Part shown: positions 34,432-63,709 of the stretch, piece by piece
Position numbering within the stretch: position 1 is the stretch's first letter
Layout: each line of letters begins with the position of its first letter
Source: Nymphaea colorata
Lineage: Eukaryota > Streptophyta > Magnoliopsida > Nymphaeales > Nymphaeaceae
DNA length: 64,000 bases
NCBI RefSeq assembly: GCF_008831285.2
Contig: NC_045141.1
Location: 22,908,742 to 22,972,741 of the forward strand
Direction of reading: 5' to 3'
Program-made: the position numbers and the translations under genes
The notes under the pieces: generated by a model
Seen by the model: the letters and a program-made list of their open reading frames with translations, nothing else
Told to the model about the DNA's origin: nothing
Databases searched by the model: none

Positions 34432-35397
34432 TTAGAAACCAGCACGGGTCCTCATATTGCTACTGGGGTTGACGATGCCATATATGAGGTCACTGTAGGG
34501 TGCACGGTTGCCGTCTTCAAGGAACTTCACGTCCAAGTACCTGTTCCACAGCATTACCCCCTGGAAGTTCTCATGCTGACGCGCGATCTTCAGTGCACCT
34601 GGAAGCTCCCTAGGCGAGATAAAGCCTTTCTCCTTGTGGTCAGGGTTGGCAAGGATCCCCAAGTAGAAGTCCATGTCGCTGAACTCCGTGGCCCAGCTCT
34701 GCACAGACGCCTCAAAGGCTGCGGTGTCCCTTCGATTGTAAGAGCAGGTTTGGTCATAGAAGCGCGGCCACACCTTGCTGAACAGCCCCGTCTTCAGCGC
34801 GTTGTAGAGCGGTATGTCTGCTTGGCCGGCGGAGTGACTGCACCCCTGGGATGCTGTCAGGATCATGTTCTCGTCCAGCTGCTTTAGGTCCTGTGCAAGC
34901 ACGTCCCAATAGGCGCTTGTCGAGGCGTCGTTGACGTAGAAGTCGACGCCATCTAGCTTTACCCTGCCGAGGGGACCGTCGATGCCATTGCCGCTCATGT
35001 AGACGTCGAAGATGTGGGCGGCCAGCTGGTTGGCCTCCTGCGCCGACGCCAGCGTGTACTTGTTCTCGTCCAGCCCTCCAATAGAAAGCAGCACTTTCAC
35101 ACCGAGTTGTTGGCAGGCGTTGATATCCTCCTGAAGGCTCTTACAGCCATCGGTCTCAACGTCGCAGACGGTACCGAAGTCGGGCCTCGGCGTTCGGCCG
35201 TTGCCGAAGTTGGTGAGGAAGGCCAAGCTCACGTGGCTGAAGTGTTTGGTTTCGCATGTGGCCCTGAGATCAGCATTATTCAGGTTTTCCATGTGCGATC
35301 CCCAATAGATGGCCATTTGGTCAGCACGGACATTGATGGTGAGGGTAGTGACCACACAAAGGAGGAGAAGGAAGCAAGGCCAAGAGGAGGAAGCCAT
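34432..35397 (-). CDS. Secreted GH18 class III chitinase-like protein, catalytically disarmed (copy A1)
   Basis: This is an intronless gene of 321 residues. A signal peptide of about 25 residues ends before DQMAIYWG, leaving a mature domain of the class III (hevamine-type) TIM barrel of normal length. The sheet markers YWG, LLSIGG (about 103-108), GVMLWNRY (Trp284) and PRFY (Tyr214) are present. Six cysteines at 48, 78, 85, 95, 186 and 218 match the three hevamine disulphides. The catalytic DxxDxDxE reads D149-G-V-D152-F-Y154-V-N156, so the acid/base Glu is Asn and the middle Asp is Tyr. Chitin hydrolysis is therefore not expected; carbohydrate binding, enzyme inhibition or storage is more likely, as in other disarmed GH18 proteins. 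There is no N-glycosylation sequon. Copy A1 is the most diverged A member (DQTCSYNRRD, ANPDHKEKGF, and C-terminal RTRAGF). Confidence 0.92.
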   Translation of the reverse strand: MASSSWPCFLLLLCVVTTLTINVRADQMAIYWGSHMENLNNADLRATCETKHFSHVSLAFLTNFGNGRTPRPDFGTVCDVETDGCKSLQEDINACQQLGVKVLLSIGGLDENKYTLASAQEANQLAAHIFDVYMSGNGIDGPLGRVKLDGVDFYVNDASTSAYWDVLAQDLKQLDENMILTASQGCSHSAGQADIPLYNALKTGLFSKVWPRFYDQTCSYNRRDTAAFEASVQSWATEFSDMDFYLGILANPDHKEKGFISPRELPGALKIARQHENFQGVMLWNRYLDVKFLEDGNRAPYSDLIYGIVNPSSNMRTRAGF

Positions 35398-35466
35398 TTT
35401 TTCTCTCTTTCCTCTTCTGTTGGCTCGAGTGGTGGTGATGGTTGAGCAAAGGGAGAATCGGAAGGT

Positions 35467-35476
35467 CCTTATATAG
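35467..35476 (-). promoter_or_regulatory. TATA box of GH18 copy A1
   Basis: The minus strand reads CTATATAAGG, preceded by GGTTCAA, about 70 bases upstream of the ATG. This predicts a leader of roughly 40 nt. Confidence 0.75.
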
Positions 35477-38261
35477 TTGAACCATGTACTGTTAACTTAC
35501 ACTTTTGAAACTACGAGAAGTAAAAATAGGTGATGGAAAATACTTAGCAGAAATGAAAAGGAAGCGGAAAGAGTTTTCACTTTTCTTGTTTATATTGTCT
35601 CGTGTCTTATCAAACCACAATATCTCGAATTCAACAAATTTCAAATTACTTTTCGAAGGTTGCCTTTCTTTTTCGAACATCGTCGTTCTTTTTCAAGGTA
35701 ACTCAAAGTTAGACAGCAACTTAATAATTTAGCATTATAAGTTAACTTGAGTTAGTATAGAAAAAAAGATGTTTGTTTAAGGAAGAAGAGATTTTTTTCC
35801 CTTATGTTCTTACGAGAGTCACAAAAAATTGTCACCTGATAAAAAGGTTTAAAACAATGAAAATAATGAACCCATTTTTTTTATTTTTTTGAAAATACTT
35901 CAAAACCAATTTTTTGTATTTCTTTTCTCATTATTTTTTGCTTTAAAGTTAAAAAGTAAGTTAAATTATTTCCCTTCATTTAAAAAAAATTGTTGAAATT
36001 TTTGCAAGAATTTCCTCTTTGTTGAAAAAAATGCATGAAAAAACGTTTTTGTTTAAAATCCGTTGGCTGTTTGTAACTATAGTTTTTACCTCAAGGTGCT
36101 GTTGTGTTTGCATGAAACCCAGCACACGCATGTGAGCTTCATGATCTACAGAATGATATAATTTTTACTCTGCAGACTAGATTTCATATGCCCGTTTTGA
36201 TTAATTTTAAAGTTCTTAAAATAAGATCAGTTATGTTTGGTGAAACAACTTTTTTTCTTCAGCTTTCAAGATGATTCTCGCTTCTTAGCAATCCATGCTT
36301 TCATTTTTCTCTCGACAATGATGTAATTTCTAAGTAAAAAGTAAGTAAAAACTAAGTATCTAAGATAAGGATGGATTTCTTTTACAAAACTAAAGAGTCT
36401 CCGTTAAATAATTAGTATGCAGCCTAATGGATGGATTCCTCTCGATCCGTTAAAAAAAAAAACAGAAGGCCGGAAAGAGAAAACGAAGGAGGACGAGGGA
36501 TAAGAACATCATATCATTCTTCAAAGTTTGGTGTGGGGACGAGACGGCCACGGTGGCCCATCTCCGATAATGAGGAAAGGCCACCAACAAAAACAATTCA
36601 TATACGTCCGAAAGCCCGACAATGTGACGCTGCAAAACAAAAACGAGAGAAGAACGGTTCTCTTTCTTTCCGCAAAAAGAAGGAAATTAGTGGAAATGTT
36701 ACAGAATTGCTTATTTATCTTTCATAAGGAAGACGACACAGAATTGAAAGCAGAGGCTTCGTGGACGATGGATCACGCAGGTTGGGGGCACATCATGGCT
36801 GTCTTTGTTAGCGTAATTTGCAAGACGACGAGAGAGCCATGGGAGTCCACGCTTAGCTAATGGACAGTAGGTCTCCTTCATCTGCCTCAGAAAACAAAAA
36901 GAAAAAGAAAAAGAAGCAGAAGACCGGAAACAAATTTAGAAAAATTAAGTGGGAAGAGGACACAGAGACGACGAAGGACGAGAGATAAGAAGAACATCAT
37001 ATCGTGCTTCAACGGCCAGTCTCAGATAATGAGAAAAGGCCACCAACAAAAAGAATTCATATCCGTCCAAAAGCCCGACAATGTGACGCTGCAAACCAAA
37101 AACGAGAGAAGAACGGTTCTCTTTATTCTGTGAAATTCATACCTTTTTGGTTTGTTTCTTCTTCCGCAAAAAAACGAAAAATTAGTGGAAATGTTAGGAC
37201 AGCTTATTCATCTTTGATAAGGAAGACGACACAGAATTGAAAGCAATCTGGAGTCTTCGTGAACGATGGATCAGACGGGTTCCTGCACATCATGGCTGTC
37301 ATTGTTAGCGTAATTTGCAAGACGACGAGAGAGCCATGGGAGTCCTAGCTATAGCTGGCCACTCCTCATTTTAATGGACGTCAAGTTAAGAGATTGAATA
37401 GGAAGGCCGTTTGGAGGCTACCTAATCTGAAGGAGCCTTCCTGATGCAACGTGTTATGATGGCCAGTTCATCGATTACCGACGATCGGGCCCTCTCACAG
37501 ACGAAACCCGATTGAAGATCACCTGACCTTGGACTGGGTGGTCTGCCATGGCCCTACGCCTTGTCAAGATTTCTAGAAGGAAACAAGACAAGACGAAGCA
37601 ATGGCTATGGAACCTGTCCAAGATTTTGTCTATAGGTAGAGGAGAGGATCGACTAGGTCATGCTCCGACCTCGTCCGGCGGCCAAACTCTATCTCCGGCG
37701 TGATCCCCACATCCTCTGCTCCACGTTTTTGGGTCCGGCTAAATCCATGTCACTCATCTCTGCCGTAGTTGCTGGAAATTGATGGATTTCTTTTATCAAA
37801 ATGAGCACCCTTCGTTTTGCTTCATGCTAGCTAATGTTGTGAGCAAACACCAATCCTTAATCAGAAGCTCTAGGACAAATGATAATAAAAAACGTTATGT
37901 TTTTGTTCGACAAACATAATATGATTATGTTCAGTATTTGACTATTAAATTTAATTACATCCATATATATTGGCAAACTAAAAGTTAGCATTTTTGGAAT
38001 AGCATTCTAAAAATGTGTAATACAATGTTCTTCTTATCAAACATATAAAACATGTATTTTATTAAGTTTTCCCTTCAACTTATGTGCATCGACTGGACAC
38101 GTACAGTTTACTAGGTTTTCCATTTTTGCCACGCATTTCAGCCTCACTCATTTCCTTTCCATTCATTGTTAACATTGGTCTCGTTTCTTTTAAGTTTCTC
38201 TACTTCTCGGCACTCATGCGTCCCTTCATTTTTTTTGGCTGTAAAAAATGGTTATCTTTTA
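35477..38261. other. 5' flank and spacer of GH18 copy A1
   Basis: The first 250 bases are a promoter block conserved in all six genes (for example GTGTCTTATCAAACCACAAT on the plus strand). It is followed by AT-rich sequence, by the tandem block listed separately, and by a GC-richer patch at about 37430-37750 (ATCTCCGGCGTGATCCCCAC) that recurs near 43800. No gene was recognised. Confidence 0.55.
36425..37350. repeat. Tandem duplication of a spacer block (about 0.45 kb x 2)
   Basis: Two imperfect copies, about 36455-36875 and 36910-37350, both contain CATCATATC, GAAAAGGCCACCAACAAAAA-like text, AATGTGACGCTGCAAA, GAGAGAAGAACGGTTCTCTT and CGAGAGAGCCATGGGAGTCC. Single copies recur in the other spacers at about 43130-43640, 48300-48660, 53270-53780 and 59030-59590. 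The 80-110 codon frames here differ between copies and are not treated as genes. Confidence 0.8.
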
Positions 38262-38678
38262 AAGGGTGTTTAATGAGAATGGAATTATGGTATTCTAGAA
38301 TTAAAAAATTCATATTTTTGATGAGATACAAATTGCGTTATCAAAGGAATAATTTTGATTCCAGAATTATAAGCTCATCCTTAAATCAAAATTATGGACT
38401 TGTGATTCTATCTTAAGGGGAGGAATTATGTATTCAAATTTTAGAATTTTTTCACATCTTTTTAGGATACATGCCATGATGGTTTTCATTCATCAATTCT
38501 ATAATTGTAATTCTTGTTTTATCAAGCACGTCATTATCAATTATGGAATCAAAATTCCAGACTATCAAACACAAAGGAAAACTAGAACTATAATTTTCAT
38601 TCCAATTCCACTTTGAAGTGGAAATTTAATCAAAGAATTTTAATTCTAGAATCAAAATTCAAGTTCTTCAAACAACCC
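38262..38678. mobile_element. Tourist/Harbinger-like MITE, copy 1 (about 417 bp)
   Basis: The element starts AAGGGTGTTTAATGAGAA and ends TTCAAACAACCC, which reverse-complements to GGGTTGTTTGAA. It is flanked by TTA on both sides (38259-38261 and 38679-38681). It is AT-rich with internal dyad sequence (CCAGAATTATAAG, ATTCTAGAATC) and is non-coding. It aligns end to end with the copy at 60207-60622. Confidence 0.82.
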
Positions 38679-39568
38679 TTAGAAACCCAAGTTTTCTTGG
38701 TAATTGGTGTGTTGATTCTTGTATGAGTGACTCCTATAGGAATTTAGATATACATAAGACAGATTGGATCAGAACTTGTCCCTGCTCTGTGATCTAAATG
38801 AATGATGCTTTTTACAAGCTCGCATATAAACTTGGTGCCTATTTCCTGTGATTGCCGAGATAGGAAAATTTAGGCTTCACTAAAATAAGACAGACTTTTG
38901 TTGCATTTGCCTTTTAGCAAAAACGATCTTACTTCACATTCATTTCAATATGGTTCATTTCAAAAGGCGGAATGCTACATTTTGGTGTCCTAGTGAATGC
39001 AACTACCATTGCCCGACACGATTAGTGGTATTGCAGTATAGCAAAATCCGTTCATGGAGTCGATGAAGGATATCAAATCAACATATTAAAAACTAAACGC
39101 ATGTTTGCTGACACATTAAAACAGGGGTTATACAACCTATTTTTAACAGTTCAATGCTCAAAATGTGATGACCCATGAAGCATAGTATAGCTGGTTGATA
39201 CGGAATTCACATACAAGGCACATCATCAGTTCAATTTCTATGGGCGTTATTCTTCTAGATAGTAAATGGCGAGATTACGACAATCTACGTTGATGGGTGT
39301 AATTCACCTCACCTAAGTCCTTATGCAGCATAGGACTATGGGGGTAAGGGGATTGGGAGAGGGGTGGCATTTAGGCTTCTTTTTTACAGGGTGGGTTTTC
39401 AACCTCTTCCTCACATGTTCAGTATTTGCTAAACAGACAAACATTAAGCAGTCCTTTAGTAACCTTCTTTATACAGCCTATTTAAAACTGTTCAATATTC
39501 AAACTTTGATGGCCATGAAGCATGATACAGTTGGTCAGGAATTCAGTTGCATACAAGGCGAATCGTCA

Positions 39569-40030
39569 GTTCGATTTTCATAGATGTTATTGTCCTGGAT
39601 AGTAAACAATAAGATCACGACAATCTAAGTTGATGGGTGTACCTTACCTCACCTAAGTCTTGACGCTGCCCAGGGACAAGGAAAATGGGAGAGGAAACAT
39701 TCAGACGTATTTTTTAGATGCTGGGTGGATCGTAAGTTCGATTTTCATAAATGCTATTCTCCTGATAGTAAGCAATAAGATCACGGCAATCTAAGTTGAT
39801 GGGTGTACCTTACCTCACCTAAGTCTTGACGCTGCCCAGGGACAAGGAAAATGGGAGAGGAAGCATTCAGATGTATTTTTTAGATGCTGGGTGGATCTTA
39901 AGTTCGATTTTCATAAATGCTATTCTCCTGATAGTAAACAATAAGATCACGACAATCTAAGTTGATGGGTGTACCTTACCTCACGATGCAGCCTAGGGAC
40001 AAGGAAAATGAGAGAGGAAGCATTCAGATC
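39569..40030. repeat. Tandem repeat, about 2.8 units of 166-167 bp
   Basis: Units start at GTTCGATTTTCATA: 39569-39735, 39736-39901, and a partial third from 39902. They share GATAGTAA(A/G)CAATAAGATC, GTTGATGGGTGTACCTTACC and GACAAGGAAAATG. Diverged relatives lie just upstream (about 39230-39400) and in other spacers (about 49400-49560, 49745-49900 and 61155-61320). Confidence 0.85.
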
Positions 40031-41379
40031 TCTTATTTATATGGTGGGTTGTCAACCTCTTTCTCACGTGTTGAATATTTGATAGGTTATTTGTCAATGA
40101 GACAAAAATTAGGTAGTCCCTTTAGTAACTTTCTTCATTGATGCACTTAACTTAAAGGAGTCTGATCACCTGCTACATATGTATCTTATCTTACCTAACT
40201 TAAGGGCGTCCGACTTCACTTGCAGTCTATGTATCTTATCTGAATTCAAACCGTTTTGCGTCTCTAATTGCTTGTCTTGCATTTGAGGTCAGAATATGAA
40301 GAAAACATTTTCCAACTTTTCACGAACATTTAACAATACTACTATGAGAAAAATTTGGGAAGTAACTCCTTTGAATGGACAGTACAGCCAGCAGATTTGG
40401 TGCATGATTCATGACGTCTTTCTTATGGATATCTTGGTATAAACAAAATACACTAAATTTGAAATTCTTTCATTTAATTGTACGTTTCTTATGTAATTTA
40501 AGTAAATGAAAAAAAATTAAGCGTGTTTTTGTTATCCCAACAAAATCTGCTATTATATCTGCAATTTTCAAATTAATTTTTTATAAGATGAATCCTTTTG
40601 CCTAATTGAAAAACAAAGGCAATCCTTTTGCTCCTGACAGTAACTCGATAGAAGACAAAAGTCGTGGCAAATATTTCTTTTTTTCGACACATATAATGTT
40701 TAGAGGGCGAAGTCTTCTTGCCTTAATGAATCCCTCAAAGTCCACCATATCTGTGTGTAAGAGGCATTTTTGTCTCCATGAAAAGCCTACATTTCACTTT
40801 GATATTTTGTCTTTATAGTTGGAGTTTTTTTGTCATTTTTTTAATTTTAATTATTTGTCGGAACTATGGTGGACATTTTCGTTCTGTCCATTTTTGGAAA
40901 GTATCATCGCTTTTCTTTTTCATCAAACTAATAAGCCTTTTGTCTCGTCTTACGAACTTGAAGTAGCAATGATTAATTCGTCCACTTTTACTTACTTATC
41001 TCGAACAGTTCCCATCATCTGCATCCCAACATGAGACTCTACCTCTCTTCTTTCCCCAAAAACAAGAAAAATTAATCGACGTAATTTGTTAAAATTTTTC
41101 ATAAATTCTATATATAGACAGAATCTAATGTACATTCCCAAATTGCTAATTATTATATGTTCATTAGATAGATTTTTCAATACTAGTTTTAAACTTATAT
41201 AATTATAAATGTTTCATCATATGCAACCCCATTATTTCATATATATTTAACTCTTTTTTTTTTGTTGAATTAATTCTCACTCTCTCCCTCCCTCTCCTTT
41301 TGATGCAGGTGCTGGCAACAGGCAATTTTTTTGAGACATGAAAAGAGAAGAAAGTTCAGAAGCAGGTAAGCTTCTGCAT
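40031..41379. other. 3' flank and spacer of GH18 copy B1
   Basis: AT-rich non-coding DNA, conserved as the 3' flank of the B-type genes and repeated at about 50100-51176 and 61500-62650. It carries a pyrimidine-rich stretch (TCTCACTCTCTCCCTC) near 41275. No gene was seen. Confidence 0.6.
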
Positions 41380-41385
41380 TTTATT
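41380..41385 (-). terminator. Polyadenylation signal of GH18 copy B1
   Basis: AATAAA on the minus strand about 55 bases past the stop, within the shared 3' block. Confidence 0.7.
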
Positions 41386-41437
41386 TAGATAGCCAGGCAG
41401 TAGGAGCCTTACACAGGCTAGGCAAAGCTTTTCAGTT

Positions 41438-42403
41438 TCAGAAACCAGCAGGCATTCTGATATTGTTACTAGGGTTGACGATGCGATATATAAGGTCGCT
41501 GTAGGGTGCGCGGTTGCCATCCTCATGGAACTTCACGTCCAAGTACCTGTTCCACAGCATCACTCCTTTGAAGTTCTCGTGCTGGCGTGCTATCTTCAGT
41601 GCACCTGGAAGCTCCTTAGGCGAGATAAAGCGTTGCTCCTCGGTGTCGGGGTTGGCAATGATCCCCAAGTACAAATCCATGTTGCTGAAGTCCGTGGCCC
41701 AGTTCTGCAACGACGCCTCAAAGGCTGCTGTATGCTTTGGGTGGTAGGTGCAGGGTTGGCCGTAGAAGCGTGGCCACATCTTGCTGAAGAGCCCCGTCTT
41801 GAGTGCGTTGTAGAGCGGTATGTCTGCTTGGCCGGCAGTGTGGTCACAACCTTGGGATGCCGTTAGGGTCATGTCCTCGTCTAGTTGCTTCAGGTCCTGT
41901 GCCAGCACATCCCAGTAGTTGTGCGTCGAGGCGTCGTTGACGTAGAAGTCGACGCCATCGAGCTTCACCTTGCCGAGGGGGCCATCGATGCCGTTGCCGC
42001 TAAGGTAGACGTCGTAGATGTGGGCGGCCAGCTGGTTGGCCTCCTGCGCTGATGCCAACGTGTATTCTTGCTCGTTGAGCCCTCCAATGGAGAGAAGCAC
42101 CTTCACTCCGAGCTGTTGGCAGGCGGCGATGTCCTCCTGAAGGCTCTTGCAGCCGCCGGACTCAGCATCACAAGCGGTACCGAAGTCGAGTCTCGGCGTT
42201 CGGCCGTTGCCGAAGTTGGTGAGGAAGGCCAAGCTCACGTGGCTGAAGTGTTTAGTTTCGCATGTGGCCCTGAGATCAGCGTTGTTCAAGTTTTTCATGT
42301 GCGATCCCCAATAGATGGCCATTTGATCGGCATGGACATTGATGGTGAAGGCAGTGGCCATGCAAAGGAGGAAGAGGAAGGGCAGTGAACAGGAGGACGC
42401 CAT
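41438..42403 (-). CDS. Secreted GH18 class III chitinase-like protein, catalytically disarmed (copy B1)
   Basis: An intronless gene of 321 residues and the first B-type copy. B marks are the signal peptide MASSCSLPFLFLLCMATAF, RTPRLDFGTACDAESGGC, GGLNEQEYTL, LDEDMTL, GCDHTAGQ, GIIANPDTEEQ and the tail NIRMPAGF. The six cysteines, LLSIGG, RFY and MLWNRY are kept. The active-site motif is D-G-V-D-F-Y-V-N, so Asn replaces the catalytic Glu. The cleft lacks the catalytic pair but looks otherwise intact. The codons are GC-rich at third positions within AT-rich flanks. It lies 6.0 kb beyond A1 on the same strand, with its own promoter and poly(A) signal, so it is a separate transcription unit. Confidence 0.92.
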   Translation of the reverse strand: MASSCSLPFLFLLCMATAFTINVHADQMAIYWGSHMKNLNNADLRATCETKHFSHVSLAFLTNFGNGRTPRLDFGTACDAESGGCKSLQEDIAACQQLGVKVLLSIGGLNEQEYTLASAQEANQLAAHIYDVYLSGNGIDGPLGKVKLDGVDFYVNDASTHNYWDVLAQDLKQLDEDMTLTASQGCDHTAGQADIPLYNALKTGLFSKMWPRFYGQPCTYHPKHTAAFEASLQNWATDFSNMDLYLGIIANPDTEEQRFISPKELPGALKIARQHENFKGVMLWNRYLDVKFHEDGNRAPYSDLIYRIVNPSNNIRMPAGF

Positions 42404-42470
42404 TTTTCCTCTCTTTTCTCTTCCGTTCGCTCAGAGTGGTGGTGATGGTTGGCAAAGGGGATGGGGAGGT

Positions 42471-42480
42471 CCTTATATAG
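42471..42480 (-). promoter_or_regulatory. TATA box of GH18 copy B1
   Basis: The minus strand reads CTATATAAGG preceded by GGTTCAA, about 67 bases before the ATG, as in the A copies. Confidence 0.75.
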
Positions 42481-45400: not shown

Positions 45401-46369
45401 ATATAGACAGAATCCAACGTTCATTCCAACATTCCGAACTATTATATGTTCAGTAGACACAGCAGCACATTTGGTTTACTGATATCGATGTGAATGTTCA
45501 AGTTTTCGTGCACACAGAAATACACTTGAGTTCGACATTTTTTTTTCCCCACTTGTATATTGTCTGTTTCTTATGTAATATTTTAAGTAGCTATGAAAAA
45601 AATCTGAGCATATGTATGCTATTTTTACTCCAACATGGTGTTAAACGCGTTTGTCCCTCACAGGCCACCATTTTAATTAATTTTTATAGGTGGTGCTTTT
45701 CCTTTATTTATTTCTTTTTGCCCGAGCTCCATACAAAATAACCTGGCTTTTCTCTTATTACCCGAACTAATAGACCTTTTGTCCTTTGAAGTTTCCTCAG
45801 AACTCTTAGACGTGTCTGCAATTGAACAGGCAGCCGCCATGAATTGGCAAAGCCATTTAGTTAAGGGCCACTAATCATAAATTTTAATTTATTATAGAAA
45901 AAATTGCTCTAAAGTGTCAACATACAGATAATTATTTTTTATTTTCCACACGGGCAATTCACTCAGGCCTTTGCCCCTACTCGATCATTCCCGTCGACTT
46001 GTCCACCTTTCAAAACCATTCCCTGCATCTGTCTGCATAGTTTAGATGTCACTTATCTTTCCTTGTTCAAAATCTACATACGATAAACTAAAAAAATTAA
46101 TGGAAGCAATTTGTTACATTAATCCATCCTAAATCCTATCTATGGACAGAATCTAAACTTCATATCTTAAATCCTTAATATTATGTTCAGTAGATAGCTA
46201 GTTAATACTAGCCTTAAACTTATATAGCGATATTTGTTTTGATGCATATTTTAGGTTTTTCGATTAATTAATTCTCTCTCTTTCAATCTCTCCCTCTCAT
46301 GTTGGCGTTGGCAACCACAAATGTTATTTTGAAACAGAAGAAAGTTCAGAAGCCTGTAAGCTTCTGCAT
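42481..46369. other. Spacer between GH18 copies B1 and A2
   Basis: It contains the conserved promoter block, a segment at about 42776-43010 not seen in the other spacers (palindrome cluster, listed separately), one copy of the spacer block (43130-43640), and the A-type 3' flank from about 45540. At 44437-44450 it carries the empty target site of the MITE. No gene was recognised. Confidence 0.6.
42884..42980. repeat. Cluster of GAGGCGTACGCCTC palindromes
   Basis: 42914-42927 is a perfect 14-bp palindrome, GAGGCGTACGCCTC. It is preceded by a near-palindrome CTTGAGGCATACGCCTCAAG (42884-42903) and followed by GAGGCGTATGC and ATGCGCCTC half-sites. The G+C content contrasts with the AT-rich surroundings. 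Confidence 0.8.
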
Positions 46370-46375: not shown

Positions 46376-46427
46376 TAGATAGCTAGGCAGTAGGAGCCTT
46401 GCACATGCAGAGCAAAACTTTTCTGCC

Positions 46428-47393
46428 TTAGAAACCAGCACGCATCCTCATATTGCTACTGGGGTTGACGATGCCATATATGAGGTCACTGTAGGGTGCA
46501 CGGTTGCCGTCTTCAAGGAACTTCACGTCCAAGTACCTGTTCCACAGCATTACCCCCTGGAAGTTCTCATGCTGACGCGCGATCTTCAGTGCACCTGGAA
46601 GCTCCCTAGGTGAGATAAAGCGTTGCTCCTCGTAGTCAGGGTTGGCGAGGATCCCCAAGTAGACGTCCATGTCGCTGAACTCCGTGGCCCAGCTCTGCAC
46701 AGCCGCCTCAAAGGCTGCGGTGTCCCTTGGATGGTAAGTGCAGGGTTGGCCATAGAAGCGCGGCCAGATCTTGCTGAACAGCCCCGTCTTGAGCGCGTTG
46801 TAGAGCGGTATGTCCGCTTGGCCGGCGACGTGGTTGCACCCCTGAGATGCTGTCAGGATCATGTTCTCGTCCAGCTGCTTCAGGTCTTGTGCAAGAACGT
46901 CCCAATAGGCGCTTGACGAGGCGTCGTTGACGTAGAAGTCGACGCCATCTAGCTTTACCCTGCCGAGGGGACCGTCGATGCCATTGCCGCTCATGTAGAC
47001 ATCGTAGATGTGGGCGGCCAGCTGGTTGGCCTCCTGCGCCGACGCCAGCGTGTACTTGTTCTCGTCCAGCCCTCCAATAGAAAGCAGCACTTTCACACCG
47101 AGTTGTTGGCAGGCGTTGATATCCTCCTGAAGGCTCTTGCAGCTGTCGGTCTCAGCATCACATGCGGTACCGAAGTCAGGCCTTGGTGTTCGGCCATTGC
47201 CGAAGTTGGTGAGGAATGCCAAGCTCACGTGGCTGAAGTGTTTAGTTTCGCATGTGGCCCTGAGATCAGCGTTATTCAGGTTTTTCATGTGCGATCCCCA
47301 ATAGATGGCCATTTGATCAGCGTGGACATTGATGGCGAAGGTAGTGACCATGCAAAGGAGGAGAAGGAAGCAAGGCCAGGAGGAGGAAGCCAT
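46428..47393 (-). CDS. Secreted GH18 class III chitinase-like protein, catalytically disarmed (copy A2)
   Basis: An intronless gene of 321 residues, A subtype: signal peptide MASSSWPCFLLLLCMVTTF, GGLDENKYTL, VYMSGNGIDGPLGRVKLDG, LDENMIL, GCNHVAGQ, SDMDVYLGILANPDYEEQ and the tail NMRMRAGF. It keeps the six cysteines, SIGG, RFY and MLWNRY. The motif D-G-V-D-F-Y-V-N lacks the catalytic Glu and the neighbouring Asp. Unlike the others it reads AETDSC before the third cysteine. Its C-terminal half is identical in protein to copy A3, whereas its N-terminal half differs from it, which points to recent exchange. Function is inferred as binding or inhibition rather than hydrolysis. Confidence 0.92.
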   Translation of the reverse strand: MASSSWPCFLLLLCMVTTFAINVHADQMAIYWGSHMKNLNNADLRATCETKHFSHVSLAFLTNFGNGRTPRPDFGTACDAETDSCKSLQEDINACQQLGVKVLLSIGGLDENKYTLASAQEANQLAAHIYDVYMSGNGIDGPLGRVKLDGVDFYVNDASSSAYWDVLAQDLKQLDENMILTASQGCNHVAGQADIPLYNALKTGLFSKIWPRFYGQPCTYHPRDTAAFEAAVQSWATEFSDMDVYLGILANPDYEEQRFISPRELPGALKIARQHENFQGVMLWNRYLDVKFLEDGNRAPYSDLIYGIVNPSSNMRMRAGF

Positions 47394-51262: not shown

Positions 51263-52201
51263 TTACTGGGGGTTGACGATGCGATATATGAGGTCGCTGT
51301 AGGGTGCGCGGTTGCCATCCTCAAGGAACTTCACGTCCAAGTACCTGTTCCACAGCATGACTCCTTTGAAGTTCTCGTGCTGGCGTGCTATCTTCAGTGC
51401 ACCTGGAAGCTCCCTAGGCGAGATAAAGCGTTGCTCCTCGGTGTCGGGGTTGGCAATGATCCCCAAGTACAAGTCCATGTTGCTGAAGTCCGTGGCCCAG
51501 TTCTGCAACGACGCCTCAAAGGCTGCTGTATGCCTTGGGTGGTAGGTGCAGGGTTGGCCGTAGAAGCGTGGCCACATCTTGCTGAACAGCTCCGTCTTGA
51601 GTGCGTTGTAGAGCGGTATGTCTGCTTGGCCGGCGGTGTGGTCACAACCTTGGGATGCCGTTAGGGTCATGTCCTCGTCCAGTTGCTTCAGGTCCTGTGC
51701 CAGCACATCCCAGTAGCCGTGCGTCGAGGCGTCGTTGACGTAGAAGTCGACGCCATCGAGCTTCACCTTGCCGAGGGGGCCATCGATGCCGTTGCCGCTA
51801 AGGTAGACGTCGTAGATGTGGGCGGCCAGCTGGTTGGCTTCCTGCGCCGATGCCAAGGTGTACTGTTGCTCGTCGAGCCCTCCAATAGAGAGAAGCACCT
51901 TCACTCCGAGTTGTTGGCAGGCGGCAATGTCCTCCTGAAGGCTCTTGCAGCCGCCGGACTCAGCATCACAAGCGGTACCGAAGTCGAGTCTCGGCGTTCG
52001 GCCGTTGCCGAAGTTGGTGAGGAAGGCCAAGCTCACGTGGCTGAAGTGTTTAGTTTCGCATGTGGCCCTGAGATCAGCGTTGTTCAAGTTTTTCATGTGC
52101 GATCCCCAATAGATAGCCATTTGATCAGCATGGACGTTGATGGTTAAAGCAGTCGCCATGCAAAGGAGGAGAAGGAAGGGCAGGGAAGAGGAGGACACCA
52201 T
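51263..52201 (-). CDS. Secreted GH18 class III chitinase-like protein, C-terminal tail lost by frameshift (copy B2)
   Basis: A B-type gene of 312 residues, nine shorter than its sisters. A run of five G (plus strand, near 51267-51271) replaces four, so translation ends RIVNPQ-stop instead of continuing into the S-x-N-x-R-M-P-A-G-F tail. The rest is intact: signal peptide MVSSSSLPFLLLLCMATAL, six cysteines, GGLDEQQYTL, LLSIGG, RFYGQPC, MLWNRY and the disarmed D-G-V-D-F-Y-V-N motif. The barrel itself should be complete, because the loss affects only the end. Whether this copy is functional depends on the role of the tail, which could be a vacuolar sorting propeptide or merely an extension. Confidence 0.88.
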   Translation of the reverse strand: MVSSSSLPFLLLLCMATALTINVHADQMAIYWGSHMKNLNNADLRATCETKHFSHVSLAFLTNFGNGRTPRLDFGTACDAESGGCKSLQEDIAACQQLGVKVLLSIGGLDEQQYTLASAQEANQLAAHIYDVYLSGNGIDGPLGKVKLDGVDFYVNDASTHGYWDVLAQDLKQLDEDMTLTASQGCDHTAGQADIPLYNALKTELFSKMWPRFYGQPCTYHPRHTAAFEASLQNWATDFSNMDLYLGIIANPDTEEQRFISPRELPGALKIARQHENFKGVMLWNRYLDVKFLEDGNRAPYSDLIYRIVNPQ

Positions 52202-55200: not shown

Positions 55201-56987
55201 TTTTTCTGCTGTAAAAACTGGTTTCTTTTAGAAACTCAACTACTTTCCAAGAGTTGGATATAATTTTTTTGCAACTGACGTTTTGATTCTTGTATGAGTT
55301 ACGCCCACAAGTATTCGATACAGTATGGATCAGAACTCCCTGCCACTGTGAGATCTATGAAAGATGCTTTCTACAAGCTCGCAGACAAACTTGGTCCTAT
55401 TTCCTGGAATTGCAGAGACAGTACTTTCAGCCAGTAGATCTGGTTTACGGTTCACGACGTCTCTGATGTATATGGATACACACGTTCAACTTTTGTTTGT
55501 ATAACAAAAAATACACCAAATTTGAAGTTCTTTCATTTAATTGTATGTTTCTTGTGTAATTGAAGTAGTTAAATGAAGAAAAACAAATTAAGTGTGTCTT
55601 TGTTATTTCAACAAAATATGATATTATATATATCCGCAAATTTTCAAATTAATTTTTCATTTATAAGACGAACGCTTTCATGTCTTAATAAATGCCTCGC
55701 AAGCCACCATGTCCTTGTGTAAGAGGCATTTTTGCGTCCCTTTCAGTTTAGTATATTTGTCTTTATATGAGGATTTTTTTTGTCCTTATTTTCTTTAGGA
55801 CTAGTTATTTGTCCTTTAGAGCTATGGTGGGGACTTTCGTTCTGTCCATTTCTACAAAATATCATCGCATTTCTTTTCACCAAACTAATAAGCCATTTGT
55901 CTTGGAATCTTCTATGATAGACTTGCAGTCTCCATTGATTAATTCGTCCACTTAATTAAGTAACCACGAAAGCTTCCCATCATCATGTGCCTCCCAGTGT
56001 GAGACTTTGTCTCTCTCTCTCTCTATATATATATAGAGAGAGACAGAATCTAATGTTGATTCCAACATTTCTAACTATTATATGTTCAGTTGACACAGCC
56101 AGCATATTTGGTTTACTGACATCGATGTGCTTGTTCAGGTTTTGGTGCACAGAGGAATACACTTTGAGTTTGATTTTTTTTTTTACTTGTATATTGTCTG
56201 TTTCTTATGTAACCTTTTGAATAGATAAATGAAAAAATCTGAATATATGTATGCTTTTGTTACACCAACATGGTGTTAAACACGTTTGTTCCTCACAAGC
56301 CACCATTTTTAGAAGAGGTGCTTTTCCTTTATTTTATTTCTATTTGCCTGAGCTATATACAAAATAACCTGGCTTTTCTCTTATTCCCCGAACGAATAAA
56401 CCTTTTGTCCCTTGCCGATTTCTGAGAACTCTTAGACGAGCCTGCAATTGAACTGGCAGCCGCCATATATGGGCAAAGCCATTTAGTTAAGGGGCACTAA
56501 TAATAAATTTTAAACTTTTGTCGAAAAAAATTGCTCTAAAGTATCAATATAAAGATAATTATTTTTTATTTTCCACACCACAAGCCTTTGCCCCTACTCG
56601 ATGATTCCCGTCTACTTATCCCCCTCTCCAAACCGTTCTCTGCATCTGTCTTCAAAATTTGGATGTCACTTATCTTTCCTTGTTCAAAATCTACATACGA
56701 TAAACTAAGAAAACTAATCGGTGCAATTTGTTTATATTAATCCATCTTAAATCCTATGCATGCACAGAATCAAATCTGCATATCTTAAATCATTATTATG
56801 ATGTTCAGTAGATAACTTGTTAATATTAGCCTTAAACTTATATAGCGATATTTGTTTTGATGCATATTTTAAGTTTTTCGATTAATTAATTCTCTCTCTT
56901 TCAATCTCTCCCTCCCATGTTGGCGTTGGCAACCACAAATGTTATTTTGAAACAGAAGAAAGTTGAGAAGCCTGTAAGCTTCTGCAT
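52283..56987. other. Spacer between GH18 copies B2 and A3
   Basis: It holds the promoter block, the spacer block (53270-53780), very T-rich sequence at 54000-54720, a second empty MITE target site (55221-55235), and the A-type 3' flank. No gene was recognised. Confidence 0.6.
56011..56042. repeat. (CT)n(AT)n(AG)n palindromic microsatellite
   Basis: A CT run, a TA run and a GAGAGAG run form a simple-sequence inverted repeat able to fold into a hairpin. Confidence 0.85.
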
Positions 56988-56993
56988 TTTATT
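56988..56993 (-). terminator. Polyadenylation signal of GH18 copy A3
   Basis: AATAAA on the minus strand, in the conserved 3' block after copy A3. Confidence 0.7.
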
Positions 56994-57045
56994 TAGATAG
57001 CTAGGCAGTAGGAGCCTTGCACATGCAGAGCAAAACTTTTCTGCC

Positions 57046-58011
57046 TTAGAAACCAGCACGCATCCTCATATTGCTACTGGGGTTGACGATGCCATATATG
57101 AGGTCACTGTAGGGTGCACGGTTGCCGTCTTCAAGGAACTTCACGTCCAAGTACCTGTTCCACAGCATTACCCCTTGGAAGTTCTCATGCTGACGCGCGA
57201 TCTTCAGTGCACCTGGAAGCTCCCTAGGTGAGATAAAGCGTTGCTCCTCGTAGTCAGGGTTGGCGAGGATCCCCAAGTAGACGTCCATGTCGCTGAACTC
57301 CGTGGCCCAGCTCTGCACAGCCGCCTCAAAGGCTGCGGTGTCCCTTGGATGGTAAGTGCAGGGTTGGCCATAGAAGCGCGGCCAGATCTTGCTGAACAGC
57401 CCCGTCTTCAGCGCGTTGTAGAGCGGTATGTCCGCTTGGCCGGCGACGTGGTTGCACCCCTGAGATGCTGTCAGGATCATGTTCTCGTCTAGCTGCTTCA
57501 GGTCCTGTGCAAGCACGTCCCAGTAGGCATGTGTCGAGGCGTCGTTGACGTAGAAGTCCACGCCATCTAGCTTTACCTTGCCGAGGGGGCCGTCGACGCC
57601 ATTGCCGCTCATGTAGACATCGTAGATGTGGGCGGCCAGCTGGTTGGCCTCCTGCGCCGATGCCAACGTGTATTGTTGCTCGTTGAGCCCTCCAATAGAG
57701 AGAAGCACCTTCACTCCGAGCTGTTGGCAGGCGGCGATGTCCTCCTGAAGGCTCTTGCAGCCGCCGGTCTCAGCATCACAAGCGGTACCGAAGTCTGGCC
57801 TCGGGGTTCGGCCATTGCCGAAGTTGGTGAGGAAGGCCAAGCTCACGTGGCTGAAGTGTTTAGTTTCGCATGTGGCCCTGAGATCAGCGTTATTCAAGTT
57901 TTTCATGTGCGATCCCCAATAGATGGCCATTTGATCAGCGTGGACATTGATGGTGAAGGTAGTGACCATGCAAAGGAGGAAAAGGAAGGAAGGCCAGGAG
58001 GAGGAAGCCAT
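57046..58011 (-). CDS. Secreted GH18 class III chitinase-like protein, A/B mosaic (copy A3)
   Basis: An intronless gene of 321 residues from the ATG at 58011 (MASSSWPSF). An upstream in-frame ATG at 58062 would add MANHHHHSSQQKRKEKK, which would bury the signal peptide. That ATG lies only about 17 bases after the TATA box, so it is probably not transcribed. The two ends are A-type (MASSSWP, RTPRPDFGT, LDENMIL, tail NMRMRAGF), but the middle is B-like (AETGGC, DIAACQQ, GGLNEQQYTL, PLGKVKLDG). The DNA at about 57655-57785 follows the B genes base by base. The six cysteines and the disarmed D-G-V-D-F-Y-V-N motif are kept. It has one private change, GNGVDGP. Confidence 0.92.
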   Translation of the reverse strand: MASSSWPSFLFLLCMVTTFTINVHADQMAIYWGSHMKNLNNADLRATCETKHFSHVSLAFLTNFGNGRTPRPDFGTACDAETGGCKSLQEDIAACQQLGVKVLLSIGGLNEQQYTLASAQEANQLAAHIYDVYMSGNGVDGPLGKVKLDGVDFYVNDASTHAYWDVLAQDLKQLDENMILTASQGCNHVAGQADIPLYNALKTGLFSKIWPRFYGQPCTYHPRDTAAFEAAVQSWATEFSDMDVYLGILANPDYEEQRFISPRELPGALKIARQHENFQGVMLWNRYLDVKFLEDGNRAPYSDLIYGIVNPSSNMRMRAGF

Positions 58012-58078
58012 TTTTTTCTCTTTTCTCTTCTGTTGGCTCGAGTGGTGGTGATGGTTGGCCAAAGGGGAATGGGAAGAT

Positions 58079-58088
58079 CCTTATATAG
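58079..58088 (-). promoter_or_regulatory. TATA box of GH18 copy A3
   Basis: CTATATAAGG preceded by GGTTCAA on the minus strand, about 68 bases before the chosen ATG. Its position argues against the upstream ATG at 58062. Confidence 0.75.
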
Positions 58089-61000
58089 TTGAACCATGTA
58101 CTGTTAACTTACACTTCTGAAATTACGAGAAGCAAAAATATCAGATGGAAAATACTTGGTAGAAATGAAAGGGGTGTTTTCTTGATTATATTGTCTCGTG
58201 TCTTATCAAACCACAGTATCTTGAATTCGACAAATTTCAAATTACTTTTTCAAGGCTGCCTTTCTTTTTCGAACGCCATCATCCTATCTACTGCCGTCAG
58301 GACTCAAAATTAGACCGCAGCTTAATAATTTAGCATTAGAAGTTAACTTGAGTTAGTTCAGAAAAAAAAGATGGTTGTTTAAGGAAGAAGAGATTTTTGC
58401 TCTTATGTTTTTACCATAGTCGCAAAAAAGTGTCACCTGATAAAAAAAATGTTAAAAAAATGAAAATAAAAAACCTATATTTTTCCTTATTTTGAAAATA
58501 CTTACAGATCAAATTTCTGTATTTTTTCTCATTGTTTTTGCCTAAGAAATAAAACTTAAGTTAAATGATTAATCTTTGTTTATATTTTTTAAAAATTGTT
58601 GTTTATTTTATAGATTTTGGCTTTGTCATAAAAAAAACCCAAAAAAACCTTGTTGTTTAAAACCCATTAACGATATTCGGTACTGTAGTTTTTACCTCTG
58701 CACGCTTGTGTGCGTTCATGAAACCTAGCACACGCATGTGAGCATGATCATGATCCAAAGAACGGTATATTTTTTGCACTACAGATTATATTTTATGTGC
58801 CCGTTATGGTAAAATTCTTAAAATAAGATCAGTTCTGTTTGGTGAAACAACTTTTTTTTTCATCAGTTTTCAAGATGAATTTCACTTCTTGGAATGTCAT
58901 GCTCACATTTTTCTCTCGAAGTGATGTAATTTCTATTTCCAATGAAACGTCTGCGGGAAAGGTAGCCTCAGGTGTAATTTCCTATTTACAAAGTCAGTGT
59001 GGATTTCAAAATTAAGGAGTCTCCGTTAAATAGTTGAGTATGCAGCCAAACGTAATGGATGGATTCCTTTCCCTCGAAGAAAACAGGCGGCCGGAAACAA
59101 ATTTAGAAAAATTAAGCAGAGCCGACGGAGGAGGAGAGATAAGAAGGACATCATATCATGCTTGGCTAACGTGGGAAGTTGTGAATTGAGCAAAGTTTGG
59201 TGCGGGGCTGGCCCATCTGAGATAATGAGAAAAGGCCACCAGCAATTCTCACACGTCCAAAAGCCGGATAATGTGACGCTGGAACAGAAAACGGGAAAGG
59301 AACGGTCCTCTTGTTTCTCTACTCTTTTTTTTTTTTGGGTTTTTCTTTTTTAACTTTTTGGATTCGCTTATTTTCCCACAAAAGAATTGAACTTTTCAGT
59401 TGAAATGTTAGGACAGCTTATTTATCTTGATAAGGAAGACGACGAAGAATTTAAAGCAGTCTGTTGCCTTCGTGGATGATGGATCACATAGGTACGTAGG
59501 AGCACGTGAAGTCTGTCTTGCTTGTGACAGTTTGCAATACGACGGGAGATGCATGGGAGTCCTAGCTTAGGTAGCCAGTTCTTATTATAATGGATGGTAG
59601 GTCCCCTTCAATGGCGAAAACAGATTGAACGGGAAGTTCTTTTGGAGACTACCTACTCCAAAGGGCCTTCTTGATAACACGTGTTATTCCATCGGATACC
59701 GACGATGGTGCGCTCTCACAGAAAAAACCCGCTTATTGAAGATCATCTGACCTTGGATCGGGTGGTCTGCCATGGCCTTATGCTTTGTCAAGATTTCTAA
59801 GAGGAAAGGAAGCAAGACAAGAGAAAGCAATGGATATGGAACCTGTCCAAGATTTTGTCTAATGGGCGGTGGACAGGATCGAGTAGGTGATACATCCATA
59901 TATATTTTTAAACAAAAAGTTAGCATTTTTGAAATAGCATTCTGTGTAATGCAATGTTCTTCTTATCAAACACCTTGTAAATAACCTTTTGCTGTTAAGT
60001 TTTCCGTTCAACTTATGTGCAATTGTGGGTCGATTGATACACCCACAGTTCACTAAGTTTTCCATTTTTGCCAGGCATTTCTGCCTTAAAATTTCCTTTC
60101 CATTCATTGGCAACAATGGTCGTGTTTGTTTTGAGTTTCTTTACTTCTCGGTACTCGTGCATCCCATGATCATTTTTTTTTGTTGTAAAAAATTGGTTTT
60201 CTTTTAGGGGGTGTTTGATGAGATCAGAATTATCGTATTAGAGAATAAAAAAATTCTTATTTTTGATGAAATAGGAATTCTGCTATCAAACGAAGAATTT
60301 TGATTCTAGAATTATAAACTCAACCTTGGATAAAAATTCTTGATTAGTGATTATATCCTAAATGGGTGGAATTATGTTTCCAAAATTTCAGATTTTTATA
60401 TATCTTTTTAAGACACATGTCATCACGTTTTTAATTCATCAATTCTACACTTGTAATTTTTGTTTTATTAAGCATTCATTTTCAATTCTGGAAAGAAAGT
60501 TCCAGACTATCAAATGCGAAGGAAAACTAAAATTAGAATTTTCATTCTAATTCCAGTTTAACGTGGAAATTTGTTCCTATACTTTTAATTCTAGAATCAA
60601 AATTGAAGGTCAACAAACGCCCTTAGAAACTCAGGTTTCCTAGAGTTGGATAAAAGTTCTTGGTGACTGATGTGTTCATTCTTCAATGAGTTACTCCTGT
60701 AAGTATTAGATACACGTACGACATATTGGATCAGAACTTCTCGCTGCTTTGTGATCTAAATGGATGATGCTTTTTACTAGCTCGCGGATAAACTTGGTCC
60801 CTATTTCCTGCGTTTGCAAGGATAGGAAAATTTAGGCTTCACTAAAATAAGACAGACTTATGTCGCATTTCCGTTTTATCAAAGTTGTCTTCCTTCACAT
60901 TCATTTCATTTCATTTCATAAAGAGGAACGCTACATTTTGGTGTCGTAGTGAATACAACTATCACAGCCCTAAACGGTTAGTGGTATTAAGCTATAAATC

Positions 61001-62650
61001 CATTCATGGAGACGACGAAGGAGGACCAAATCTACATGTTAAAAACTAAACGCAGCATCCTACAGCTTATTTGTGTCTGTTCAATGTCCAAAATGTCGTG
61101 CTCATGAGTCATAGTATAGCTAGTCGAGAAGGTGGTAATGTACAAGTCACATAGTCAGTTCAATTTCTATGGGTGTTATTCTCTTAAACAGTAAACGGTG
61201 GGATCATGACAATCTAGATAGACAACGTAACCTACCTCATCTATGTCCCGATGCAGCACAAGACCCTCAAGGCAAAGGGAATGGGGGAAGGGGCATTCAT
61301 TCTAGATGGTGAATTGTCAACCTCTCCGTCATCACCTGTTCATGTCAATAGGAAAAACATTAGGCAGTCCCTTTAGTAACCTTCCTTCATTGGTGCACCT
61401 AAGTCTGATCACCTGCAACATATGTATCCTTTTCTGAATCCCAACCGATTTCATCTCTAATTGTTTGACAAAATAAAGGTGGGTAAGAACTCAAACTCAT
61501 CATGTATTTGAGGTAAGAATAAGAAGCAAACATTTTCCAACTTTTTCATGAACATTGAACAATACTACTTTGAGAAAAATTCGGGAGGTAAATCCTTTGG
61601 ATAGACAGCACAGACAGCAGATCTGGTGCATGATTCATGACGTCTCTCATATGGATATCTTGGTATAAACAAAATACACTAAATTTGAAGTTCTTTCATT
61701 TAATTGTACGTTTCTTATGTAATTTAAGTAAATGAAAAAAAAAAAATTAAGCGTGTTTTTGTTATCCCAACAAAATCTGATATTATATCTGCAATTTTCA
61801 AATTAATGTTTTATAAGATGAATCCTTTTATCTAATTGGAAAACAAAAGCAATCCTTTTGCTCCTGACAGTTACTCGAAAGAAGCCAAAAGTCGTGGCAA
61901 ATGTTTCTTTTGCTCGACATATATCATTGTTTAGAGGACGAAGTATTAGTGTCTCAATGTATGCCTCACAGTCCACCATGACCGACCGTGTGTAAGAGGC
62001 ATTTTTGTGTCCATGAAAAGCCTTCTTTTCACTTTAATATTTTGACTTTATAGGAGGAATTTTTTTGTCCTATTTTTTTAGTTTTAATTATTTGTCGGAA
62101 CTATGGTGGACATTTTCGTTCTGTCCATTTCTGCAAATTATCATCGCTTTTCTTTTCATCAAACTAATAAGCTTTTTGTCTTGTCCTATAGACCCGCAGT
62201 CGCCAAGATTAATTCCTCCGCTTTCACTTACGTGCCTCGAACAGTTCCCATCATCTCCTTCCCACATGAGACTCTATCGCTCTTGTTTCCCTGTTAAAAT
62301 CTATGTACCAAAAACTAGAAAAATTAATCGAAGTAATTTTTTATAATTTTTCGTAAATTCTAAATATATACAGAATCTACTGTGCATACCCAAATTTCTA
62401 ACTATTATATGTTCATTAGATATTTCAATACTAGTTTTAAACTTATATAATTACAAATGTTTCGTCATGTGCGACCTCATTAGTCCATATATCTTTTACC
62501 TTTTCTTCTGTTGAATTAATTCTCACTCTCTCCCTCTCCTGATTATGCAGGTGCTGGTAACAGGCAATTCTTTTGTTTTTGAGACATGAAGACTGAAGAA
62601 AGTGAGACATGAAGACTGAAGAAAGTTCAGAAGCATGTAAGCTTCTGCAT
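58089..62650. other. Spacer between GH18 copies A3 and B3
   Basis: It contains the promoter block, the spacer block (59030-59590), a full MITE, diverged 166-bp-type repeat sequence (about 61155-61320), and the B-type 3' flank. No gene was recognised. Confidence 0.6.
60207..60622. mobile_element. Tourist/Harbinger-like MITE, copy 3 (416 bp, intact ends)
   Basis: The termini GGGGGTGTTTGATGA and TCAACAAACGCCC form an imperfect inverted repeat. The flanking TTA is duplicated (60204-60206 and 60623-60625). The empty counterparts at 44437-44450 and 55221-55235 read TTCTTTTAGAAACTCAAC with a single TTA, confirming insertion and a 3-bp duplication. The element has no coding capacity. Confidence 0.87.
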
Positions 62651-62720
62651 TTTATTTAGATAGCGAGGCTGTAGGAGCTTTGCATTTTATTTAGATAGCG
62701 AGGCAGTAGGAGCTTTACAC
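62580..62720. repeat. Two short tandem duplications in the 3' region of GH18 copy B3
   Basis: GAGACATGAAGACTGAAGAA occurs twice (about 62580 and 62602). GCATTTTATTTAGATAGCGA also occurs twice (about 62648 and 62682), followed by GGC(T/A)GTAGGAGCTTT. The second duplication doubles the AATAAA signal. Confidence 0.88.
62686..62691 (-). terminator. Polyadenylation signal of GH18 copy B3 (proximal of two)
   Basis: AATAAA on the minus strand about 53 bases after the stop. A duplicate lies at 62651-62656. Confidence 0.7.
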
Positions 62721-62743
62721 AGGCTAGGCAAAGCTTTTCAGTC

Positions 62744-63709
62744 TCAGAAACCAGCGGGCATTCTGATATTACTACTGGGATTGACGATGCGTTCGATGAG
62801 GTCGCTGTAGGGTGCGCTGTTGCCATCCTCAAGGAACTTCACATCCAAGTACCTGTTCCACAGCATCACCCCTTTGTAGTTGTCATTCTGACGCGCGATC
62901 TTCAATGCACCTGGAAGTTCCTTAGGCCTGATAAAGCCTCGCTCCTCATAGTCAGGGTTGGCAAGGATTCCCAAGTAGAAGTCGATCCTGCTGAACTCCG
63001 TGGCCCAGTTCTGCACCGACGCCTCAAAGGCTGCTGTGTGCCTTGGGTGGTAGGTGCAGGGTTGGCCGTAGAAGCGTGGCCACATCTTGCTGAAGAGCCC
63101 CGTCTTGAGCGCGTTGTAGAGCGGTATGTCCGCTTGGCCGACAGTGTGGTCACAACCTTGGGATGCCGTTAGGATCATGTCCTCGTCAAGTTGCTTTAGG
63201 TCCTGTGCCAGCACATCCCAGTAGCCTTGCGTCGAGGCGTCGTTGACGTAGAAGTCGACGCCATCGAGCTTCACCTTGCCGAGGGGGCCATCGATGCCGT
63301 TGCCGCTAAGGTAGACGTCGTAGATGTGGGCGGCCAGCTGGTTGGCCTCCTGCGCTGATGCCAACGTGTATTGTTGCTCGTTGAGCCCTCCAATGGAGAG
63401 AAGCACCTTCACTCCGAGCTGTTGGCAGGTGGCGATGTCCTCCTGAAGGCTCTTGCAGCCGCCGGACTCAGCATCACAAGCGGTACCGAAGTCGAGTCTC
63501 GGCGTTCGGCCGTTGCCGAAGTTGGTGAGGAAGGCCAAGCTCACGTGGCTGAAGTGTTTAGTTTCGCATGTGGCCCTGAGATCAGCGTTGTTCAAGTTTT
63601 TCATGTGTGATCCCCAATAGATGGCCATTTGATCGGCATGGACATTGATGGTGAAGGCAGTGGCCATGCAAAGGAGGAAGAGGAAGGGCAGTGAACAGGA
63701 GGACGCCAT
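62744..63709 (-). CDS. Secreted GH18 class III chitinase-like protein, catalytically disarmed (copy B3)
   Basis: An intronless gene of 321 residues. Its N-terminal two thirds are nearly the same as copy B1 (MASSCSLPFLF, RLDFGTACDAESGGC, GGLNEQQYTL). The C-terminal third departs: ATEFSRIDFYLGILANPDYEE is A-like, and ERGFIRPKEL, ARQNDNYKG, DGNSAPYSDLIERIV are private changes. The tail is NIRMPAGF. The six cysteines, LLSIGG, RFY and MLWNRY are kept, and the motif is D-G-V-D-F-Y-V-N as in all the others. The changes lie towards the C-terminal strands of the barrel and may alter its surface. It is the last complete copy before the right edge; the array may continue. Confidence 0.92.
   Translation of the reverse strand: MASSCSLPFLFLLCMATAFTINVHADQMAIYWGSHMKNLNNADLRATCETKHFSHVSLAFLTNFGNGRTPRLDFGTACDAESGGCKSLQEDIATCQQLGVKVLLSIGGLNEQQYTLASAQEANQLAAHIYDVYLSGNGIDGPLGKVKLDGVDFYVNDASTQGYWDVLAQDLKQLDEDMILTASQGCDHTVGQADIPLYNALKTGLFSKMWPRFYGQPCTYHPRHTAAFEASVQNWATEFSRIDFYLGILANPDYEERGFIRPKELPGALKIARQNDNYKGVMLWNRYLDVKFLEDGNSAPYSDLIERIVNPSSNIRMPAGF

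Follow-up and report, generated by a model that had tools for sequence, protein, structure and literature searches.

An array of chitinase-fold genes in the water lily Nymphaea colorata includes a selected family without the catalytic acids

We investigated a stretch of 64,000 nucleotides of the Nymphaea colorata genome (NCBI RefSeq assembly GCF_008831285.2, contig NC_045141.1, positions 22,908,742 to 22,972,741), here called the window, and the chitinase-fold genes that it carries. Its minus strand holds six intron-free frames running from ATG to stop (table 1), five of 321 amino acids and one (copy 4) of 312. All six products matched the Pfam domain of glycoside hydrolase family 18 (GH18, PF00704) with 36.5-40.3 bits (cut-off 29.6), and they were assigned to the class III chitinase fold, a hevamine-like barrel predicted to be intact. 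Since frames of about 300 residues carry a GH18 match, chance was excluded as their source. The closest solved structures by sequence were PPL-2 and hevamine, followed by the class III chitinases 4toq and 6idn, haementhin/XAIP, concanavalin B, XIP, and the tamarind lectin. A non-plant origin was ruled out, the nine top matches of 28 in the first homologue search all being from Nymphaeaceae. Three other proteins of the same array were identical over their last 200 residues to N. colorata database entries; the six window proteins were absent from the protein database matches. Each copy has a TATA element and a long open frame (copy 4 without its tail), and the aligned flanks of all six share TATATAAGG and much of the 5' leader, in agreement with a reading made earlier from the letters alone (the sequence-only reading), which held that the promoters were retained.

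The same reading had reported the motif DGVDFYVN in every copy, with both catalytic acids replaced identically. Both statements stand: the motif was read in 6/6 copies, and Asp125 and Glu127 of hevamine correspond to Tyr154 and Asn156 in each. We designate pockets below by the residues at these two columns, so that the window copies are Y/N and canonical enzymes D/E. Pocket positions were mapped on hevamine by pairwise alignment, with residue roles taken from PMC3662789, for a family set of 16 rows and an outside set of 28 rows, the latter including a few with altered motifs (P0012, P0021, P0022, and P0041). The alignment excluded ten of 48 proteins: the truncated P0008, the long or fused P0014 and P0030, P0028, and P0043-P0048. 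The gene models P0001 and P0031 seem to be wrong in part. Against the DxxDxDxE of active class III enzymes, 15 of the 16 family rows had neither acid and one had Asp at the Glu column, which held only Asn, Asp, or Arg throughout. Beyond the two acids, other chitin-contact positions had also changed. Above all, Gln181 at the -1 subsite was Arg in 6/6 window copies and 16/16 family rows, and Gln in 28/28 outside rows, while Asn45 was Asp in 15/16 family rows. Equivalents of Tyr6, Asp120, Asp123, Tyr183, and Trp255 and the six cysteines were unchanged in the window copies, as had been claimed for the cysteines and the cleft Tyr and Trp residues; all residues of hevamine's three cysteine pairs are thus present, and the pairs could form. 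Across the family rows Asp120 and Asp123 were kept in 16/16 and Tyr183 in 14/16. The alpha4-beta5 stretch of the window proteins was three residues shorter than that of hevamine. Since Gln181 has become Arg and other contacts have changed, the pocket appears, from these alignments, to be not just short of two acids but filled anew by large and basic residues.

The six genes were confirmed, although they are only part of the family that had been described as consisting of them. Searching the genome (407.8 Mb) gave 28 matches, 24 of them on one strand of the contig of the window (C4), where the array spans 22.943 to 23.077 Mb (134 kb). The array was read from 20 stretches. The class III genes found by the search set a lower bound for the whole genome. 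From the outer end inwards, window copies 1-6, L009, and L010 (all Y/N) are followed by L011 (broken), L012 (Y/N), L013 (W/N), L014 and L015 (Y/N), L016 (W/N), L017 and L018 (Y/R), L019 (A/V), L020 (D/L), L021 (D/E, DFDME), L022 (a fragment), L023 (EVIVD), and the canonical L024 and L025 (DFDIE). Intact genes with an aromatic pocket number 15, comprising 11 Y/N, two W/N, and two Y/R, and two further DFDIE genes lie on contig C12. The broken L011 consists of two matches with several in-frame stops. Family fragments beside a retroelement-like frame on contig C1 (L028) are possibly a carried or dispersed piece. An ABC transporter gene, putatively ABCC-like and apparently with introns, flanks the array, its ABC_membrane and ABC_tran domains lying in successive frames. 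One array spacer contains a 166-base unit repeated 2.5 times with 95% matches. In Nymphaea thermarum, the gene model P0001 has an odd C-terminal end, 25 residues of which agree at 100% with the spacer that lies downstream of copy 2; this suggests that the model was wrongly joined.

Table 1. Features of the window and of the wider array (window positions unless a contig is given)
Feature	Position	Strand	Description	Basis
Copy 1	34432-35397	-	class A, chitinase-fold gene, DGVDFYVN, tail ...RAGF	reading frame, motif, Pfam
Copy 2	41438-42403	-	class B, DGVDFYVN, tail ...PAGF	reading frame, motif, Pfam
Copy 3	46428-47393	-	class A, DGVDFYVN, tail ...RAGF	reading frame, motif, Pfam
Copy 4	51263-52201	-	class B, DGVDFYVN, 312 aa, end ...IVNPQ	reading frame, motif, Pfam
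Copy 5	57046-58011	-	class A with class B patch (codon-alignment nt 248-351), DGVDFYVN	frame, motif, Pfam, mosaic test
Copy 6	62744-63709	-	class B with class A patch (codon-alignment nt 732-825), DGVDFYVN	frame, motif, Pfam, mosaic test
Motif, copy 1	34930-34953	-	DGVDFYVN codons	
Motif, copy 2	41936-41959	-	DGVDFYVN codons	
Motif, copy 3	46926-46949	-	DGVDFYVN codons	
Motif, copy 4	51734-51757	-	DGVDFYVN codons	
Motif, copy 5	57544-57567	-	DGVDFYVN codons	
Motif, copy 6	63242-63265	-	DGVDFYVN codons	
5' flank, copy 1	35398-35650	-	TATATAAGG ~70-78 bases upstream of ATG	aligned flanks
ABC transporter	12911-19391	+	flanks array	
Spacer repeat	39562-39984		166-base unit	
Spacer match	37661-37772	-	end of P0001	
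L011	C4 22991829-22993207		broken copy	
L019	C4 23033638-23034618		A/V	
L020	C4 23039773-23040747		D/L	
L028	C1 36991180-36994447		family fragments	

The loss had been placed before the duplications, and the trees bear this out. In a tree of 46 proteins, 22 rows with Y/N, Y/D, W/N, or Y/R pockets fell on one side of a branch with support 100/100. Their sources are N. colorata, N. thermarum, and Victoria cruziana, with Victoria represented in all three sub-types. The aromatic clade has a single origin and, because it is one clade with Victoria in every sub-type, the loss is older than the Nymphaea-Victoria split. The same tree, which includes L023, separated the aromatic rows, L019-L021, and L023 from the rest (97/99). 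A second tree, with two fungal rows added as outgroup, had 42 rows, without L023 (a long branch), P0001, P0031, P0015, P0033, and P0039. There the aromatic rows and L019-L021 formed a clade (97/91) inside the plant class III chitinases, adjoining the C12 pair (86/85); its output carried a warning that the long branch of Riccia joins that of the fungi. The whole array as one clade was not found in the best tree and was not rejected by the approximately unbiased test (p-AU 0.29; performed without L023). The canonical consensus WVQFY reads WPQFY in L019-L021 and L023, while the aromatic rows compared have WPR (seven Y/N or Y/D, three Y/R) or WAR (two W/N); the Pro common to L019-L021, L023, and the Y/N and Y/R rows would fit the tree.

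The retained copies are under purifying selection. Ratios of nonsynonymous to synonymous substitution (dN/dS) among the six window copies were 0.139-0.315 over the whole coding sequence and 0.114-0.329 for the mature part in 15/15 pairs, and no bootstrap upper limit exceeded 0.575. These values rule out simple drift and uphold the earlier view that the copies were preserved. Sixteen further pairs were tested beyond the window: seven Y/N-Y/N pairs gave 0.12-0.22, the W/N pair 0.20, W/N versus Y/N 0.30, Y/R versus Y/R 0.40, the canonical array pair 0.21, and the C12 pair 0.36. Because these ranges are alike, the Y/N family is constrained as tightly as the canonical genes. For L021-L023 the ratio was 0.32, with dS (1.48) near saturation. 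L019 and L020, which lost the Glu separately, showed no clear selection, with a ratio of 0.85 (0.48-1.73) from few changes (dS 0.08), and 0.50 and 0.37 against L021; they suggest a natural, if imprecise, control for drift within the array.

Recent duplication can be followed in the window, where class A (copies 1, 3, 5) and class B (copies 2, 4, 6) alternate, and in the 46-protein tree L009 (A) and L010 (B) extend the alternation; a two-gene unit has therefore been repeated. Copy 5 contains a 13-site run of class B and copy 6 an 8-site run of class A, neither reached in 10000 shuffles, and both mosaics look conversion-like. Of the 11 intact Y/N genes, 10 terminate with [GA]F, and in seven of these the ending is AGF. 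In copy 4 a run of C differs in length by one base, and this removes the tail; the difference may be an assembly error. In comparison with copy 6, one in-frame stop was counted in this copy. These tails resemble IAGF, the vacuolar signal of Brazil-nut 2S albumin (PMC8084162). Vacuolar sorting determinants share no consensus except that their last residues are hydrophobic (PMC12796998), so that sorting to the vacuole is a lead and no more.

On these sequences, it is an even call whether the aromatic-pocket proteins are non-catalytic binding proteins stored for defence, their pocket rebuilt and their dose increased by duplication, which is the account that we favour. The genes would have arisen by tandem duplication, before Nymphaea and Victoria separated, from a class III chitinase that carried D/E. 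Their products, retaining the class III (GH18) fold, would enter the secretory pathway and probably reach the vacuole. In the Y/N, Y/D, W/N, and Y/R proteins the retaining chitinase action would be lost; no such activity is expected, because the proton donor (Glu127) and its helper (Asp125) are gone and Gln181 is Arg. Large and basic residues would now fill the pocket. We propose that the barrel mouth was retained because it binds a partner, which could be a glycan or an enzyme of foreign origin, as part of a stored defence, and that recent tandem duplication of the two-gene unit, together with gene conversion, would have raised the dose. The binding or inhibitor role of the sequence-only reading was not borne out in its simple forms, since a shortened alpha4-beta5 stretch and the change of most chitin contacts leave both a plain chitin lectin and a copy of XIP-I unsupported.

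Several observations weigh against the favoured account. The equivalents of hevamine Gln9, Asn45, Gly48, Gly81, Asn184, and Ala224 are changed in the window copies, and with most chitin contacts altered no known ligand can be named; these changes were also compared in 12 of the 20 aligned aromatic rows (near-identical ones omitted) and 18 canonical rows. Structural work on the vacuolar sorting receptor found hydrophobic residues favoured at -1 and -2 (PMC12796998), a preference that the Gly at -2 matches poorly. Because the stem of the aromatic clade is long (1.1-1.4 changes per column), the attachment point of the clade is less sure than its unity and may be misplaced. Some window pairs have upper limits (to 0.575) above the lower limit of the drift control, L019-L020 (0.48). 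Finally, the beta-alpha loops were more variable among the six copies than the remainder (28/99 versus 27/184, Fisher p 0.007; p 0.035 versus other non-strand positions). In the wider aromatic family, the excess in the top shell weakened to p 0.10 without the positions invariant in both sets. The canonical rows showed the same trend, and the excess may therefore reflect the fold. Positive selection at the barrel mouth is not claimed, the dN/dS of these loops being only 0.19 despite the more variable sites.

Storage alone and XIP-like inhibition are serious rivals. Inactive class III homologues of banana fruit and Robinia bark are abundant storage or lectin proteins, and the barrel could likewise be a stable, digestible amino-acid reserve of protein storage vacuoles, its pocket irrelevant and copy number and conversion serving yield. 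The dose of 11 intact Y/N genes, the [GA]F tails, and the nitrogen per residue of the window copies (1.35, versus 1.21-1.36 in the 28 outside rows) agree with this. However, that enrichment is mild (the other family rows P0003-P0007, P0009, and P0029, at 1.30-1.34, lie within the outside range), dN/dS of 0.11-0.33 is as low as in the canonical array pair, and Arg replaces Gln181 in every family row, so we consider storage alone unlikely, if well worth keeping in mind. A glycosidase inhibitor of the XIP/XAIP type, whose surface loops would plug a microbial xylanase or amylase, seems less probable again. XIP-I and XAIP are reported to have two disulphides, whereas all six hevamine cysteines are present in 6/6 window copies and would predict three. 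The alpha4-beta5 loop, elongated in XIP-I (PMC3662789), is shorter here than in hevamine. Catalysis kept or altered through other residues, for example the Asp of the Victoria Y/D copy, or directed to another glycan, could draw on the conserved Asp120, Asp123, and Tyr183; it is very improbable, as both carboxylates are absent in 15/16 rows and mutation of Glu127 impairs hevamine (PMC3662789). Drifting remnants, which repeated tandem duplication would maintain and gene conversion keep alike, would explain the mosaics, the broken L011, and the truncated copy 4, and are just as hard to credit, being already contradicted by the dN/dS limits of all 15 window pairs, by Victoria in each sub-type, and by the TATA elements and long frames.

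A pseudoenzyme is usually discovered after the stages that led to it have disappeared. This 134-kb row brings together canonical enzymes, possible intermediates, a dead pair that looks like drift, and a dead family under selection. It is possible, though we lean towards doubt, that this array preserves a series from enzyme to non-enzyme, roughly by tree depth: DFDIE; DFDME with the new Pro (WPQFY); other losses (L019/L020, L023); and a selected branch with a rebuilt pocket (Tyr/Trp, Asn/Arg, Arg212) that binds a new ligand. Because the series sits in one row, the change of Val211 to Pro, that of Gln181 to Arg, the loss of both acids, and the gain of a ligand are directly testable. If true, the selected branch would be an equivalent of XIP or concanavalin B in an early-diverging angiosperm lineage, with a chemistry peculiar to it.

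The Y/N pair had been thought unusual, and a comparison with other GH18 proteins agreed. Our census outside Nymphaeaceae covered 152 proteins, taken from the best 120 of 3369 and from earlier matches, of which 151 had a motif match, with 164 matches in all; it is biased to canonical enzymes and includes a few spurious matches (the second in P0026; the fungal P0045 and P0048). While 153 of the 164 were D/E, no Y/N, W/N, or Y/R pocket occurred among them. Among the matches listed, the nearest pocket, Y/K, came from a Rhododendron fusion; Arg in place of Gln181 occurred only in the two domains of one Colocasia protein. Altered class III motifs of other plants (P0030, P0051, P0056, P0021, and P0022) were Y/K beside an intact domain in Rhododendron, A/V in Ipomoea, A/V and S/A in Colocasia, F/E in Diospyros, and A/D in Salix; these separate alterations make catalytic loss seem a repeated event. 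No description of this family was found among the papers listed by literature searches (subscription journals and supplements lay outside them), and in the paper on the N. colorata genome (PMC7015852) a word search of the main text returned "chitinase" 0 times.

Compared with hevamine and other class III (PR-8) GH18 chitinases, the family has Tyr or Trp for Asp125, Asn, Asp, or Arg for Glu127, Arg for Gln181, and, in 15/16 rows, Asp for Asn45, as well as longer beta1 and beta5 loops and a C-terminal tail. Concanavalin B, which carries an extra disulphide (PMC3662789), between Cys41 and Cys93, and coffee CaclXIP (DFHIQ; PMC3045311) have Gln in place of Glu, unlike any residue seen here. The tamarind chitinase-like lectin has also lost both pocket acids, its pocket being Ala, Val, and Phe (PMC3045311, PMC2998507, PMC3662789). 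In contrast, among the XIP-I, OsXIP, and XAIP inhibitors, XIP-I retains the Glu, salt-bridged to Arg158 and Arg181 (PMC3045311), and its long alpha4-beta5 loop bears Arg149, which contacts GH11 (PMC3662789), whereas this stretch is shorter than hevamine's in the window proteins, XIP-I being compared by description and not residue by residue. The pocket of XAIP-II (His124, Glu126, and Tyr182; PMC2998507) also differs. Non-catalytic GH18 proteins are well known, while the Y/N, W/N, and Y/R pockets appear, among the motif matches compared, to be new, and water lilies, an early branch of the flowering plants, would possess a lineage-specific chitinase-fold family without the catalytic acids.
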